Source of the DNA: Rathayibacter sp. Leaf185
GTDB taxonomy: Bacteria; Actinomycetota; Actinomycetes; Actinomycetales; Microbacteriaceae
DNA: 64,000 nt
Assembly: GCF_001423885.1 (NCBI RefSeq)
Contig: NZ_LMPP01000004.1
Span: forward strand, 62,001 to 126,000
Direction of reading: 5' to 3'
Position 1 is the stretch's first letter; the number at the start of each line of letters is the position of its first letter. Of the stretch, positions 10,869 to 16,955 are shown piece after piece. A program made the translations under genes and the position numbers. The notes under the pieces are model-generated. The model worked only from the letters and a program-made list of their open reading frames with translations. It did not search any database and was not told where the DNA came from.

Positions 10869-12950
10869 TCAGACGTCGATGCGGTCCCGGGACAGGGTCT
10901 CGGAACCGCGGACGATGAACTCCTTGCGGGGAGCGACGTCGTTGCCCATCAGCAGCTCGAAGACTCGGCCGGCGTTCTCGGCGTCGGCCACCCGCACGCG
11001 CCGGAGGGTGCGGCGCGAGCGGTCCATCGTCGTCGTCGCGAGCTGATCCGCGTCCATCTCGCCCAGGCCCTTGTAGCGCTGGATCGGGTCCTGGTACCGG
11101 CGTCCCGCCTTGGCCAGTGCCGCGAGCACGCTCTGCAGCTCCTTCTCGGAGTAGGTGTAGATGGTCTCGTTCGGCTTCTTGCCCGCGTTCATCACGACGA
11201 CGCGGTGCAGCGGCGGCACCGCGGCGAAGACCCGCCCGGCCTCGACCAGCGGCCGCATGTAGCGGAAGAACAGCGTCAGCAGGAGCGTGCGGATGTGCGC
11301 GCCGTCGACGTCGGCGTCGCTCATCAGGATGATCTTGCCGTAGCGCGCCGCGCTCAGATCGAACGAGCGGCCCGACCCCGCTCCGATGACCTGGATCATC
11401 GACGCGCACTCGACGTTCGAGAGCATGTCGGCGATGCTCGCCTTCTGCACGTTGAGGATCTTGCCGCGGATGGGCAGCAGCGCCTGGTACTCGCTGTTGC
11501 GGGCACTCTTCGCGGTGCCGAGCGCGGAGTCGCCCTCGACGATGAAGAGCTCGCTGTTCTCGACGTCGCTGCTGCGGCAGTCCACGAGCTTGGCCGGGAG
11601 CGAGGAGGACTCGAGTGCGTTCTTGCGGCGCTGGGTCTCCTTGTGGGCACGGGCCGAGATCCGCGACTTCATCTCCGCCACGAGCTTCTCGAGCAGCTGC
11701 GACATCTGAGCCTTGTCCTCGCGCTTGGTCGAGGAGAAGATCGCGCCGAGCGTCGACGTGATGGTCTGCGCGACGATCGCGCGCACGGCCGGCGTGCCCA
11801 GCACCTCCTTCGTCTGGCCCTCGAACTGCGGCTCGGGGAGGCGCACCGTCAGCACCGCGGTCAGACCGGCGAGGACGTCGTCCTTCTCGAGCTTGTCGGA
11901 GCCGACCTTGAGGCGCCGGGCGTTGGCCTCGACCTGCGAGCGGAGGAGCTTCAGCAGCCCCTGCTCGAACCCGGTCTGGTGCGTGCCGCCCTTGGGCGTC
12001 GAGATGATGTTGACGAAGCTGCGCACCACCGTCTCGTAGCCGGTGCCCCAGCGCAGGGCGATGTCGACCTCGCACGACCTCTCGACCTCGGTCGGCACCA
12101 TCGCGCCACCCGGAGTGAGGACGGGTACGGTCTCGGTGAAGGTACCGGTGCCGGTGAGCCGGAGGACGTCGGTCACTGCGGCATCCGGAGCGAGGAACTC
12201 GACGAACTCCGAGATCCCGCCGTCGTAGCGGAACATCTCGGCCCGCCGCTCGGCCTCGCGGTCATCGACGATGTCGATCGTCAGGCCGGGCACGAGGAAG
12301 GCGGTCTGCCGGGCGCGAGTGACGAGGTCGTCGGTCTGGAACGCCGCGCCCTTCGTGAAGATCTGGCGATCGGCCCAGTAGCGCACGCGCGTGCCGGTGA
12401 TGCCCCGCTTCACCTTGCCGACGACGTCCAGCTCGGAGCCGTTCTCGAACGGGGTGAACGGCGCGTCGGGCGTCGGCTCCCCCGCGTCCGCGAAGCGGCC
12501 GGGCTCCCCTCGGTGGAACGACATCCGGTAGGTGCGGCCGTCACGGTCGACCTCGACGTCGAGGCGTTCCGAGAGGGCGTTGACCACCGAGGCACCGACT
12601 CCGTGCAGCCCGCCCGAGGCGGCGTACGATCCGGAGCCGAACTTGCCTCCCGCGTGCAGCTTCGTGAAGACGACCTCGACGCCCGTCAGCCCGGTCTTGG
12701 GCTCGATGTCGACCGGGATGCCGCGCGCGCTGTCGCGGACCTCGACGCTGTCGTCGGCGTGCAGCACGACGCTGATCTCCGAGCCGTGACCGGCCAGTGC
12801 CTCGTCGACGGAGTTGTCGATGACCTCCCACAGGCAGTGCATCAGTCCGCGCGAGTCGGTCGAGCCGATGTACATGCCCGGGCGCTTCCGGACCGCCTCG
12901 AGGCCCTCGAGAACGGAGAGGTGCCGAGCGGAGTAATCGGAGGAGGCCAT
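10869..12950 (-). CDS. parE: DNA topoisomerase IV subunit B (GyrB/ParE family)
   Basis: ATPase subunit, 693 aa. The GHKL ATPase has EVIDNSVDEA, the DSARGIPVD loop and GLHGVGASVVNALS. The TOPRIM domain has FIVEGDSALG and SDADVDGAHIRTLLL, and the C-terminus carries RYKGLGEMDADQL. Start ATG 12950; a TAAACT hexamer 6 nt upstream (12957-12962) suggests a leaderless mRNA. Convergent with parC. Confidence 0.93.
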   Translation of the reverse strand: MASSDYSARHLSVLEGLEAVRKRPGMYIGSTDSRGLMHCLWEVIDNSVDEALAGHGSEISVVLHADDSVEVRDSARGIPVDIEPKTGLTGVEVVFTKLHAGGKFGSGSYAASGGLHGVGASVVNALSERLDVEVDRDGRTYRMSFHRGEPGRFADAGEPTPDAPFTPFENGSELDVVGKVKRGITGTRVRYWADRQIFTKGAAFQTDDLVTRARQTAFLVPGLTIDIVDDREAERRAEMFRYDGGISEFVEFLAPDAAVTDVLRLTGTGTFTETVPVLTPGGAMVPTEVERSCEVDIALRWGTGYETVVRSFVNIISTPKGGTHQTGFEQGLLKLLRSQVEANARRLKVGSDKLEKDDVLAGLTAVLTVRLPEPQFEGQTKEVLGTPAVRAIVAQTITSTLGAIFSSTKREDKAQMSQLLEKLVAEMKSRISARAHKETQRRKNALESSSLPAKLVDCRSSDVENSELFIVEGDSALGTAKSARNSEYQALLPIRGKILNVQKASIADMLSNVECASMIQVIGAGSGRSFDLSAARYGKIILMSDADVDGAHIRTLLLTLFFRYMRPLVEAGRVFAAVPPLHRVVVMNAGKKPNETIYTYSEKELQSVLAALAKAGRRYQDPIQRYKGLGEMDADQLATTTMDRSRRTLRRVRVADAENAGRVFELLMGNDVAPRKEFIVRGSETLSRDRIDV

Positions 12951-13130: not shown

Positions 13131-13364
13131 ATGTCGACCACAGCAACCCAGAACGGCGTGGACGAACTCGCTGGCGCCCACCAGCTCTCCGCCGCCGACC
13201 GCTGCGACAGCTGCGGCGCGCAGGCGTACATCCGCGTCGTGGTGAACAGCGGAGAGCTCCTCTTCTGCTCGCACCACGGCAAGAAGTACCAGGAGAAGCT
13301 CTCGAGCATCGCTCAGAGCTGGCACGACGAGTCCGCGCGGCTCTTCGAGGAGCAGCGTCCCTGA
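13131..13364 (+). CDS. Small zinc-finger protein (DUF7455-like)
   Basis: 77-aa protein with AGGAGG 8 nt before its ATG. The core has CDSCGAQAYIRVV and LLFCSHHGKKY, that is CxxC plus CxHH, a probable zinc knuckle. This compact family is common in actinobacteria next to sigA/parE loci and is of unknown function. It is convergent with gatD. Confidence 0.85.
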   Translation: MSTTATQNGVDELAGAHQLSAADRCDSCGAQAYIRVVVNSGELLFCSHHGKKYQEKLSSIAQSWHDESARLFEEQRP

Positions 13365-13401: not shown

Positions 13402-14124
13402 CTACCGGCCGACACCGAGCCGCTTCGCGATCACATCGCGGGCGGCTCGTGCCGTTTCATCGGTGGCATGGAGTCGAGCATCGGTCGTCGTGTAGGTCAG
13501 CGAGCGTCGCTCGGCGACGCGGGTGAGGATCGCATCGGCGAGCGCGGGATTCTTCGCCAGCACCGGGCCGTGCAGATGCGTGCCGAGCAGCACTCCCTCG
13601 CGGTAGCCCTCGACCCCTCCGCCGTCCCCGACCCCGTGGAGCACCGAGCCGAGCACGTGCGCCGGATCGATGCCCTCGACGCGCCGGACATGGTTCTCGA
13701 ACCCGACGAGGGTGAGCGGTCCGCACGAGACGACGAGGTCGTCCGTCACCCGCTCGCCCGCGACCGCGCGTCCGGGGAACACGCCCGCGCCGGTGACGAT
13801 TCCCGTCGGCGTGGCGAACGACTCCGTCAGAAGCTGCCAGCCGGCGCCGACCGCCACGACCTCGGTCCCGTCCGCCGTCCAGCCCCGCAGAGCGGCGCCC
13901 GTCTCGCGCAGGAGGTCGAGCACGCCCGGGAGGTCCTGATCGGCTCCCGTCCCCGCGACGACGACATCGGGCCGGACAGCGAAGTCCTGGGCCGCGCGGA
14001 GCGGCACCAGCTCGGCGTCGAGCCCGGCCCAGCGGGCGCGAGCCACCAGGACGCGCGCGTTCGCGGCGTCGCCGTTGCTGTCGAGCACCTCCGGCGCCAG
14101 AACGCCGATGCGGAGAGTGGTCAC
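13402..14124 (-). CDS. gatD: GatD-like class I glutamine amidotransferase lacking the catalytic cysteine
   Basis: 240-aa protein starting at GTG in a GTGA overlap with the upstream murT stop. In the known system GatD liberates ammonia from glutamine and MurT uses it to amidate the alpha-carboxyl of D-Glu in lipid II. The fold and order are GatD-like: the N-terminal strand, the nucleophile-elbow position and the C-terminal GTHLHGPVLAKNP, with a candidate catalytic His185. However, the elbow reads AVGAGWQ (residues 91-97) where active family members read A(I/V)CGGYQ, so Gly93 replaces the nucleophile. The only cysteine, C134, lies elsewhere. The protein is therefore predicted not to be a glutaminase. 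Gene symbol is by homology only. Confidence 0.85.
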   Translation of the reverse strand: MTTLRIGVLAPEVLDSNGDAANARVLVARARWAGLDAELVPLRAAQDFAVRPDVVVAGTGADQDLPGVLDLLRETGAALRGWTADGTEVVAVGAGWQLLTESFATPTGIVTGAGVFPGRAVAGERVTDDLVVSCGPLTLVGFENHVRRVEGIDPAHVLGSVLHGVGDGGGVEGYREGVLLGTHLHGPVLAKNPALADAILTRVAERRSLTYTTTDARLHATDETARAARDVIAKRLGVGR

Positions 14125-15386
14125 GAGTCCTCCTCGCGGTTGGAGGCGAGCTGCAGGTGCGCCCGCGTGCGGCGCATCGAATCAGCCGAGAAGACGATGG
14201 TCTTGCGACCGGAGGCGGGTGTCGGCAGGGCGAGGAACGCGTCGAGAGCACGGCCGAGGTCCTCGTCGACGGCGTCGATCTCGACTCCGTCGTAGCGCAG
14301 CTGCAGCGCCGCCTCGTGGGCCTTCGAGCCGGACACGACCCTGACGCGACCGAGCCGCGCCGTGTCGACGGGCCAGAAGTAGGACGGATCGCGCACGTCG
14401 GAACCGATCGCGAGCATCACCTGCTCGGTCCCCTCCGGGATTTCAGCGAGATTCAGGCGGTAGCTCGCCGGGTTCTGCACCAGTACGAACTCCACCTCCT
14501 GGCCGCGCACCGTGACGACCTCACCGCGTCCGAAGACCGGGTCGATCGACGAGAGGGCGGCGGAGGCGGTCCCCGCGTCGAAGCGCTCGCCGAGCACGGC
14601 GCGCGCGGCCGAGACCGCCGCGGCGGCGTCGACGGCGTAGTGGACGCCGCGGGCGGGAAGGCGCACCTCGAGCGGAGTGCCGTCACTGACGATCCTGGCG
14701 GCCGCGCCCGATGTCGTCTCAACGACGGTCGTGGCGCGATCCTCGCCGGAGTCCGCGTCGGCCGCGTACCCGAGGCCCCCCGTCGCGGCGCTCCGCACAG
14801 CGGAGGAGACCCCGTACCAGCGGACGGCGTCGGTGGGCAGAGCGGTCGCGATCTCGGCCACGTGCCGGTCGTCGGCGTTGAGGACCACAGGACCGGTCGC
14901 CCGCTCGGCGATCTCGGCCAGCATGCGCGCGACCATCGCCGGGTCGAAGAAGCGGTCGATCTGATCGACGACGACGTTCGTCAAGAGGACGACCCGCGGG
15001 CTCATGCGCGGCGCGAGTCGCGCACCATGGCCTTCGTCCATCTCGAGGACGGCGATGTCCGCGTCGATGCGACCTCGGAGATCCGCTCGTTCGAGCAGCG
15101 CCGAGGTGAGACCCTGCGCGATGTTCGCGGTCGACGGATTCGTGAACACGGCCAGTCCGTGCGCACGGAGGACGGCCACCAGCATCTTGGTGGTCGTCGA
15201 CTTGCCGGCCGAACCGGTGACGACGACGAGGCCCTCCGGGAAGCCGTCGAGGACGGCCGGGAGGAACCCGGGAGCGACTCGATTGACGATGAGCCCCGGC
15301 ACGGCGGACCCGCCGCCAGGCTTGCGGACGCGCGCCGCGAAGCGGGCGGCCCTCCCGAGGAGGACCGCCGGCGCGTAGCGGATCAC
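14121..15386 (-). CDS. murT: MurT-like Mur ligase (DUF1727 C-terminal domain)
   Basis: 421-aa Mur ligase paralogue. The P-loop is GSAGKSTTT (residues 58-66; canonical GTNGKTT/S), then a Mur ligase middle domain and a DUF1727 C-terminal domain with LVQNPASYRLNL (canonical KNPAG) and DPSYFWPVD at 333-341 (canonical DxSWxWD). There is no cysteine at all, so no Cys4 zinc ribbon as in staphylococcal MurT. The ATP-grasping core appears intact, so acyl-phosphate activation of a carboxylate is plausible. It is cotranscribed and translationally coupled with gatD, and lies 4 bp after the sigA stop-codon end on the opposite side of the same strand order. Confidence 0.88.
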   Translation of the reverse strand: MIRYAPAVLLGRAARFAARVRKPGGGSAVPGLIVNRVAPGFLPAVLDGFPEGLVVVTGSAGKSTTTKMLVAVLRAHGLAVFTNPSTANIAQGLTSALLERADLRGRIDADIAVLEMDEGHGARLAPRMSPRVVLLTNVVVDQIDRFFDPAMVARMLAEIAERATGPVVLNADDRHVAEIATALPTDAVRWYGVSSAVRSAATGGLGYAADADSGEDRATTVVETTSGAAARIVSDGTPLEVRLPARGVHYAVDAAAAVSAARAVLGERFDAGTASAALSSIDPVFGRGEVVTVRGQEVEFVLVQNPASYRLNLAEIPEGTEQVMLAIGSDVRDPSYFWPVDTARLGRVRVVSGSKAHEAALQLRYDGVEIDAVDEDLGRALDAFLALPTPASGRKTIVFSADSMRRTRAHLQLASNREEDS

Positions 15387-15390
15387 CGGC

Positions 15391-16683
15391 CTACTCGAGG
15401 TAGTCGCGGAGCGACTGCGAGCGCGACGGATGACGGAGCTTCGCCATCGTCTTCGACTCGATCTGACGGATCCGCTCGCGCGTGACGCCGAACGTGTCGC
15501 CGATCTGGTCGAGCGTCTTGGGCATGCCGTCGCCCAGGCCGAAGCGCATGCGGATCACGCCCGCCTCGCGCTCGGACAGGGAGTCGAGCAGAGACTCGAG
15601 CTGCTTCTGCAGCATCGTGAAGCCCACCGCGTCGGCGGGGACGACGGCCTCGGTGTCCTCGATGAGGTCGCCGAACTCGCTGTCGCCGTCCTCACCCAGG
15701 GGCGTGTGCAGCGAGATCGGCTCGCGGCCGTACTTCTGCACCTCGATGACCTTCTCGGGGGTCATGTCGAGTTCGCGCGAGAGCTCCTCGGGCGTGGGCT
15801 CGCGGCCCAGGTCCTGGAGCATCTGGCGCTGCACGCGCGCGAGCTTGTTGATGACCTCGACCATGTGCACGGGGATGCGGATGGTGCGCGCCTGGTCGGC
15901 CATCGCGCGGGTGATCGCCTGACGGATCCACCACGTCGCGTAGGTCGAGAACTTGAAGCCCTTGGTGTAGTCGAACTTCTCGACCGCGCGGATGAGACCG
16001 AGGTTGCCCTCCTGGATGAGATCCAGGAACTGCATTCCGCGACCGGTGTAGCGCTTCGCGAGGCTGACCACGAGTCGGAGGTTCGCGCCGAGCAGGTGGC
16101 TCTTCGCGCGCTGCCCGTCCTTCGCGACCCAGCGCAGCTCGCGGACGAGCTCCGGGCTGAGGTCGCTCGAGTTGGCGAGCTTGTCCTCGGCGAACAGGCC
16201 GGCCTCGATGCGCATTGCGAGCTCGACCTCCTCGGCCGCGTTCAGGAGCGCGACCTTGCCGATCTGCTTGAGGTAGTCCTTGACCGGGTCGGCGGTCGCT
16301 CCGGTGATCGCGGTCGAGTAGACCGGGACCTCGTCGTCGTCCCCGCCGAACGACAGCACCAGGGCGCCGCTCGGGAGCGGCTCCGCGGCGGCGGCTACGG
16401 CGACCACGGGGGCATCCGGGGTCTCGGAGTCGTCCTTGACCTCGGTCTCGGTCTCGTCGACGACCGTCTCGGTCTCGTCGTCGTCCGGCGTGTCGGCCTC
16501 GTCGGGCTCGGGAGCGTCGGCGGTCTCCTCCTCGGCGGCGGGTGCGGCCGTCTTGGCGGAGGCGCGGGCGCGCGGGGTCTTCGCGGCGGCCGGCTTGCGC
16601 GCTGCCGGCTTCTTGGCGGTCGTCGTCGTCGCGTCGTCGTCGACGGCGTCGAGCGTGGCTGTCTTGGTAGTCCTGGTGGCCAT
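15391..16683 (-). CDS. sigA: Primary RNA polymerase sigma factor (RpoD/SigA)
   Basis: 430-aa sigma-70 factor. The N-terminal 115 residues are Ala/Lys/Asp/Glu-rich and disordered, then region 1.2 ([17 protein letters not shown]), region 2 ([35 protein letters not shown]), region 3, and region 4 ending in [19 protein letters not shown]. The long acidic N-terminus is typical of actinobacterial housekeeping sigma factors. Start ATG 16683 has GGAGAGG 7-9 nt upstream; the frame stays open further upstream but without similarity. Downstream on the same strand are murT and gatD. Confidence 0.95.
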
Positions 16684-16955
16684 AGCGGCACCTCTCCATC
16701 CGTTGCGTCCCGGTAGCGGACGGCGCCGGGAGAGCGTCGTCCGTCGGTGGGCATTACGAGGACCCATGTCAAGTCGGGGACGTCGCACGCCGGATGCCGA
16801 CGTGGTGCTCCTCGACCCGAACGGGTCCTATTGACAATTATTGCACGCCTGGGTAGTGCGATCGTGCCGACGAGCCCTTCGGCGTGCACGGATCCGCTCA
16901 CCGGGAGGTCGATCTCGATCGGGACATCCTGTCGGGGAGCGAGCCGATGCGGCGG

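Follow-up and report, generated by a model that had tools for sequence, protein, structure and literature searches.

Why should a glutaminase subunit be retained after its catalytic nucleophile has been lost? The question is raised by a murT-gatD gene pair in a 64,000-nucleotide stretch of the genome of Rathayibacter sp. Leaf185 (Microbacteriaceae; assembly GCF_001423885.1, contig NZ_LMPP01000004.1, positions 62,001 to 126,000), referred to below as the window. The gatD gene (13402..14124, minus strand; 240 amino acids) encodes a pseudo-glutaminase subunit without the catalytic Cys, while murT (14121..15386, minus strand; 421 amino acids) encodes a Mur-ligase subunit in which the P-loop Lys is kept, the ammonia-gate Arg is lost and the DNAAD region is shortened. 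Judged on sequence comparison, the pair would be a retooled amino-acid ligase, here termed MurT2/GatD2, and one of two exchangeable gene sets found in the slot behind the sigma factor gene sigA, a reading to which we assign a probability of about 0.5.

The window MurT contains a Mur_ligase_M domain (PF08245; 54.4 bits) and a MurT_C domain (PF08353; 25.5 bits, barely above the cut-off of 25), the latter representing the single MurT_C match in a profile search of the window genome, and the adjacent GatD contains a GATase_3 domain (PF07685; 45.9 bits). GatD could be aligned with the solved GatDs 5n9m (E 8e-16) and 6gs2 (E 9e-16), and MurT with the MurT proteins of 6fqb (E 1e-23) and 6gs2 (E 4e-23), with both proteins falling short of the NCBIfam equivalog cut-offs (GatD 74 vs 450 bits; MurT 91 vs 800 bits). 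In the alignment with Staphylococcus aureus GatD, the motif C(94)GGYQ is matched by G(93)AGWQ, confirming the first-pass annotation in its statement that Gly93 (codon at 13846..13848, minus strand; position counted on the translation) replaces the catalytic Cys, which is Cys94 in S. aureus. The window GatD retains His185 within the motif LHGP, the counterpart of His189. In S. aureus GatD, a C94G or C94S exchange abolishes lipid II amidation (PMC6085368, PMC6113224).

Among the GatD loci collected, which include some species twice (two copies of one genome), the catalytic Cys is missing in 106 of the 130 loci from the Microbacteriaceae and present in 24 (Cys-less and Cys+ loci, respectively), while it is retained in all 45 loci from other families of the order. 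A 16S comparison with named Microbacteriaceae supports the family assignment, and the closest match to the window's genus among the named loci is Frigoribacterium (96.7 % 16S identity). The position is occupied in the Cys-less loci by Gly (80 loci), Ala (17), Ser (4), Thr (2), His (2) or Asn (1), and His189, which was readable in 105 of the Cys-less loci, is substituted in 33 of them. The divergent pair retained in Aquiluna (L351) includes a GatD with neither the Cys nor the His (TTLFGP), which suggests that this doubly defective GatD is retained as a scaffold. A MurT tree was built from 114 rows (30 named loci, 69 of the 90 other family loci after exclusion of 21 near-duplicates, and 15 of the 45 outside-family loci), with the far-diverged Galbitalea and Schumannella proteins excluded. 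In this tree, a quick search with branch support by the Shimodaira-Hasegawa-like approximate likelihood ratio test (SH-aLRT) only and with long rows flagged by the program (L087, L040 and others), the Cys loss represents one change, uniting 79 Cys-less rows on a branch with a support of 100. The loss is neither a chance event nor a sequencing error, because it is present in four genomes of the window's genus and in a large clade of the family. Ratios of non-synonymous to synonymous substitution rates (dN/dS) among those four genomes are 0.07-0.15 for murT and 0.19-0.33 for gatD, compared with 0.04 for one pair of Cys+ Leucobacter gatD genes; both genes are under selection in the window's genus, gatD less tightly.

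Alterations in three motifs of the window MurT (P-loop, NPAG and DxSWxWD), likewise noted in the first pass, are real in the alignments with the solved MurTs, where GTNGKT reads GSAGKS, KNPAG reads QNPAS and DNAADGRDTSW reads GS---DVRDPSYFW. The description of the P-loop as divergent is thus apt as regards GSAGKS, but P-loop Lys59, as well as Glu108, is kept in 79/79 Cys-less and 35/35 Cys+ MurT rows, so that the divergent P-loop does not denote a dead ligase. The counterpart of MurT Asp349 is also present in the window (Asp of RDPS), the Asp of DxSW being kept. The ammonia-gate position (S. aureus 133, equated with S. pneumoniae 135 by hand count) is Arg in 35/35 Cys+ rows and Val, Ile, Thr, Leu or Ser in 79/79 Cys-less rows, with Val in the window protein; Arg135 is reported to shut the ammonia gate in a model of the S. 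pneumoniae complex. Gly319 of the KNPAG motif is replaced by Ser or Thr in 79/79 Cys-less rows and by Ser or Ala in 3/35 Cys+ rows, and position 321 is Gln in 73/79 Cys-less rows, the window protein being among the six exceptions (Arg). Furthermore, all 76 aligned Cys-less loci (two of which, L001 and L002, are one locus) lack three residues in the DNAAD segment, a shortening absent from the far-diverged Galbitalea and Schumannella proteins. A Cys4 zinc ribbon, considered for the window MurT, is ruled out as the protein contains no Cys residues. The alignments show a glutaminase and an ammonia path taken apart, next to a carboxylate-activating half that appears intact. Loss of the Cys is genuine, dates far back within the Microbacteriaceae, arose once and is coupled to the breakdown of the ammonia path.

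These residues also bear on the alternative that MurT2/GatD2 is an ammonia-dependent amidase, in which MurT2 would produce D-isoglutamine from free ammonium with GatD2 as a scaffold. This would be the simplest change, and it accords with the MurT ligase residues and DxSW Asp being kept; the vertebrate carbamoyl phosphate synthetase CPS1, whose glutaminase domain has lost its Cys, is a precedent. However, the gate Arg and the DNAAD region have changed too, and the same carboxyl is needed for the cross-bridge in a B-type wall. The S. aureus C94G/S variants were, moreover, inactive in vitro (PMC6113224), in an assay that may or may not have contained ammonium. An ammonia-dependent amidase is considered unlikely.

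The retooled-ligase reading draws further on the location of the pair. The frame directly upstream of murT (15391..16788, minus strand), judging by its sequence the housekeeping sigma factor gene sigA, anchors the slot. The genes follow each other on the minus strand in the order sigA, murT, gatD, with a 4 bp gap between the sigA stop and the murT start and a 4 bp overlap between murT and gatD, and judging by this spacing they form an operon; no promoter or terminator signals were found near the three genes, which is uninformative. In 100 of the 106 Cys-less loci the pair immediately follows sigA (median gap 14 bp, range 5-154 bp, between tblastn alignments), the six others being L017, L023 (flank too short to judge), L071, L076, L077 and L334. 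The L076 and L077 pairs belong to a further Cys-less class (KSPxxxQ, DxSQLWLxDW), present as a second copy. Conversely, sigA adjoins none of the 69 Cys+ loci, of which 44 have a flank long enough for this to be judged (0/44).

Fifty named genomes were drawn from 58 first chosen, among at least 80 loci, for profile searches, and the slot was examined in thirty named genomes. It holds murT in eleven, twelve have another gene after sigA, six have neither ligase and in one, an Agrococcus, the contig ends. The murT gene follows sigA directly in eight of the eleven and lies one gene further in Pseudoclavibacter, while Galbitalea and Schumannella (L345, L346) encode a far-diverged MurT-like protein (GTNGKTT, KGLVGVACS) and a GatD-like protein with His at the Cys position; the Schumannella slot additionally holds an ATP-grasp gene. 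The twelve with another gene comprise two Salinibacterium, two Homoserinibacter and four Microbacterium genomes, Microcella, Gulosibacter, Humibacter RRB41 and Frigoribacterium CG_9.8. The replacement gene encodes a distant member of PF01996, the family of the F420-0:gamma-glutamyl ligase CofE (45.5, 38.4 and 28.8 bits for three copies; cut-off 25). Against the F420 CofE equivalog (cut-off 180.65), one copy scored 29.5 bits and a second had no listed match, and full-length CofE is encoded by a separate gene in many of the genomes that hold the CofE-like gene. A PF14397 ATP-grasp protein is encoded nearby (96.2 bits for the one copy compared with Pfam), joined in Homoserinibacter by an alanine racemase.

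A profile built from nine of eleven CofE-like sequences gave strong matches (372-436 bits) in 28 of 199 Microbacteriaceae genomes. Among the same genomes, 151 had a match to the window GatD at E 1e-3, in a single-query search which may overlook highly diverged GatDs, the Aquiluna protein being an example. GatD was matched in none of the 28 strong CofE-like genomes (both genes, CofE-like only, GatD only and neither: 0/28/151/20; Fisher p 1.6e-21, kinship ignored); for these 28 the exclusion rests on the GatD search, while the MurT search covered eleven of the twelve named CofE-like genomes. Eighteen of the twenty CofE-like loci inspected (of 28) lie directly behind sigA (gap up to 83 bp), the exceptions being L420, where a diaminobutyrate (Dab) aminotransferase gene lies between sigA and the CofE-like gene, and L412, where the ATP-grasp gene is upstream of the CofE-like gene and no sigA occurs within the 1.3 kb examined. 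A PF14397-related ATP-grasp gene is found within the stretch in 20/20 loci and an alanine-racemase-type gene in 9/20. On a 16S tree of 92 genomes, with slot states assigned by hand, there are eighteen changes among three slot states, ten of them between the two ligase types. Both states occur within eight genera (g7, g9, g53 Humibacter, g68 Microcella, g70, g73 Agromyces, g77 and g78 Microbacterium; names of the groups from 16S similarity), where sigA is followed by a Cys-less pair in one genome and by a CofE-like gene in another, GatD-less, genome. The Cys-less genome G134 (g77) has a weak CofE-like match elsewhere. Groups g35, g36 and g39 each include a GatD-less genome in which the CofE-like gene is absent as well; two of these three assemblies are 90 and 93 % complete, and six further GatD-less genomes had no genus assignment in this comparison.

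Genes that could supply an amino acid accompany both gene sets in part of the loci. Of the 101 Cys-less loci with a downstream flank of 1200 bp or more, 31 have Alr-type genes close to murT-gatD, sometimes two in tandem (by eye), compared with 0/66 Cys+ loci. A Dab aminotransferase gene lies inside the slot in two of the ten genomes with both the CofE-like gene and a TIGR00709 match, namely G018 (L420:1939-3264) and G053 (L414:905-2182), the latter belonging to the Humibacter group. Both proteins pass the TIGR00709 as well as the ectoine EctB cut-offs, and a role in ectoine synthesis is possible. The presence of supply genes beside a carboxylate-amine ligase fits the D-diamino acids of B2-type bridges.

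In the scheme favoured here, the window pair would represent one Microbacteriaceae MurT/GatD subfamily behind sigA, in which MurT2 would still use ATP to activate a carboxyl, which from homology should be the alpha-carboxyl of D-Glu in the wall precursor, and GatD2 would no longer produce ammonia and would serve as a structural partner. If GatD2 makes no ammonia, the amine joined would not be Gln-derived ammonia; the likeliest candidate would be a free amino acid and, among these, probably a D-diamino acid (D-Dab, D-ornithine (Orn) or D-Lys) that starts a B2-type cross-bridge. The sigA slot would be exchangeable, with the CofE-like ligase and ATP-grasp genes achieving the same ligation, or one close to it, by unrelated means. 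Substrate, amine, wall role and the equivalence of the two gene sets are all predictions of this scheme. A broader proposal, to which we would give somewhat less than even odds, is that two unrelated, interchangeable ligase sets start the B-type bridges of the Microbacteriaceae from one slot, each sometimes with an Alr-type gene and in two cases with a Dab aminotransferase gene, and that the set present may fix the wall chemotype. In the first-pass annotation the pair was proposed to activate this carboxyl and join an amine other than ammonia. The absence of the Gln-ammonia route, the kept ligase residues and the supply-gene context speak for this, but not for its extension to a rule for B-type walls.

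Published wall types were available mostly for strains other than the genomes compared. Type B2 is given for Clavibacter (PMC5358740), Agromyces (PMC5217419), Herbiconiux (PMC10011130), Cryobacterium and Frigoribacterium (PMC7033078), and Agreia and Frondihabitans (PMC5945732), while Glaciihabitans is given as type B10 (PMC7033078) or B2beta (PMC4156110). On these assignments, eight B2/B10 genera have named genomes with a Cys-less-type pair, although for Glaciihabitans and Frondihabitans MurT alone was seen, GatD running off the locus. Among genera with a CofE-like gene, Salinibacterium is of type B with Lys/Orn (PMC7033078 Table 3), and Microbacterium is of type B (PMC11319209) with Lys, Orn or Dab in the wall (PMC10757982). 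Use of the Dab aminotransferase model TIGR00709 as a proxy for wall type was rejected: it exceeds the cut-off in 37/199 genomes of sixteen genera, with the pair absent, Cys-less or Cys+ alike. Microbacterium bridges may start with Gly, which would fit a split of the two gene sets by first bridge residue.

Several observations weigh against the retooled-ligase reading. The Cys loss alone would fit an ammonia-dependent enzyme too, the support consists of sequence comparison, and two further MurE paralogues in the window genome are rival candidates. The window slot has no racemase, nor have 70 of the 101 Cys-less loci with sufficient flank, and the presence of TIGR00709 did not track the pair across the family. 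The Agromyces-like genome G176 and Frigoribacterium CG_9.8 carry the CofE-like gene though their genera are B2. Neither ligase is found in the slot of Aurantimicrobium, Amnibacterium CER49, Klugiella, Leucobacter salsicius and two Agrococcus genomes, and 20/199 family genomes carry neither gene. The three weak CofE-like matches (130-156 bits) all occur in genomes with a GatD match, and the exclusion is marginal when placed on the 16S tree (ten independent pairs; mean 5.5 opposite and 0 same; median p 0.0625). Two of three named Leifsonia genomes combine a Cys+ with a Cys-less pair, and the two would then be rivals for a single carboxyl. The pair is also not universal. A GatD profile search of the named genomes at E 1e-9 gave matches in 35/50. 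Fourteen of the fifteen genomes without a match were searched with a MurT profile, the fifteenth, an Auritidibacter metagenome-assembled genome of 1.2 Mb which by name lies outside the Microbacteriaceae, being left out. Apart from Aquiluna with its divergent pair, nothing above 55 bits was found in the remaining thirteen, comprising Klugiella, two Salinibacterium, Frigoribacterium sp. CG_9.8, Agrococcus sp. Marseille-P2731, three Microbacterium, Gulosibacter, two Homoserinibacter, Microcella and one Humibacter.

The MurE paralogues underlie a second alternative, in which an extra MurE paralogue is the bridge ligase and MurT2/GatD2 acts on a different carboxyl, such as the one on the bridge amino acid. 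The window genome indeed encodes two MurE-family proteins outside the dcw cluster, L367 (C2:376261-376857) and L368 (C1:265999-266604), which score 341 and 365 bits against TIGR01085 (cut-off 257) and in which, by eye, DHHPRFE replaces DNPR. However, seven of ten MurT-less named genomes have just five Mur_ligase_M matches, corresponding by position to MurC-F and FolC, so that an extra MurE is not general either, and this alternative is considered quite improbable. A hidden Mur ligase in the MurT-less genera was rejected. Three of the ten genomes counted six matches; in two Microbacterium genomes the sixth is another part of a frame already counted, which leaves that of Gulosibacter, of the MurE family, as the one truly extra protein. 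The extra MurE proteins of the window genome, with their DHHPRFEDP-type motifs, occur besides the dcw-cluster Mur ligases, while the single MurE found in Microbacterium elymi (L376) has a motif of the DHHPRFEDP type. In Klugiella and Salinibacterium (L370, L371), a MurE-family protein is encoded apart from the other Mur ligases, with DDDVH(H/N)EDGD replacing DNPR (by eye).

The strict form of the initial proposal, in which the pair is the missing general B-type bridge ligase of the Microbacteriaceae, appears highly improbable. The Cys loss is seen only in the Microbacteriaceae, and the polarity of the reaction is right for a Mur ligase, but as a general statement the proposal failed, since 13/50 named genomes show no MurT and Leucobacter is B-type with an intact Cys. 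The four named Leucobacter genomes carry a Cys+ pair only (4/4), and L. chironomi, not among them, is described as type B with Dab and gamma-aminobutyric acid in the wall (PMC4511665). A strict mapping of the Cys loss onto B-type walls is therefore rejected. What stands of the mapping is that the loss is confined to the family (0/45 loci outside); no A-type genus with the same loss was seen, all 45 outside-family loci being Cys+, with wall types there not established. Mapping by repeated independent Cys loss is impossible given the single event, and the correspondence with B-type walls thus amounts to one data point. A decaying pseudo-enzyme, or a regulatory role tied to sigA, would account for the drift of the GatD catalytic positions and the weaker constraint on gatD than on murT, but is scarcely credible with the catalytic Lys and Glu kept in 79/79 rows and with eight genera carrying another ligase in the same slot when the pair is absent.

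Among the matches listed from the open-access PubMed Central (PMC) literature, in their titles and the beginnings of their abstracts, there was no Cys-less MurT/GatD, B-type bridge ligase or CofE-like wall gene, and no enzyme assigned to joining an amino acid to the D-Glu alpha-carboxyl in B-type walls. No separate known bridge ligase was found, and the CofE-like/ATP-grasp set may do the same job in relatives. A retooled MurT2/GatD2 and the CofE-like set would together provide two concrete candidates for the step that sets B-type walls apart, the addition of an amino acid onto the D-Glu alpha-carboxyl. They would also account for the retention of a glutaminase subunit that has no nucleophile, and may yield a genetic marker for a character long used in the taxonomy of the Microbacteriaceae.

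The far side of the slot in the window is marked by a small Cys-rich protein (13131..13364, plus strand; from the translation, with the start counted by hand), presumably of family DUF7455, which serves as the downstream anchor, and by a topoisomerase subunit, presumably of the gyrB/parE type (10869..12950, minus strand), which is the far anchor. Elsewhere in the family, two Leifsonia genomes (L311/L342 and L312/L341) have the Cys-less pair behind sigA and the Cys+ pair at another location, and amidation and a second function may coexist in one cell. The Cys+ gatD of Leucobacter coleopterorum (L344) lies in two adjacent pieces and may be broken or reflect a sequence error.

Among the closest known systems is the lipid II isoglutaminyl synthase MurT/GatD, with structures from S. 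aureus (6gs2/6h5e) and S. pneumoniae (6fqb). The window pair shares its two-gene order, protein families, P-loop Lys, acidic DE pair, DxSW Asp and, in LHGP, the His, but differs in the loss of the nucleophile and gate Arg, the shortened DNAAD region, the change of KNPAG to (K/Q)NxxS, the absence of Cys from the window MurT and the location behind sigA. With the Mur ligases MurC-F and the archaeal pMurC/E it would share the proposed reaction, in which ATP drives the coupling of an amino acid to an activated carboxyl of a peptide, and it shows weak NCBIfam matches to them. Mur ligases, however, carry a UDP-binding domain at the N-terminus and are not paired with a GatD. The slot protein of the MurT-less relatives resembles CofE in belonging to the same family (PF01996; 28.8-45.5 bits), yet it falls far below the F420 CofE cut-off and coexists in many of the same genomes with a separate gene for full-length CofE.

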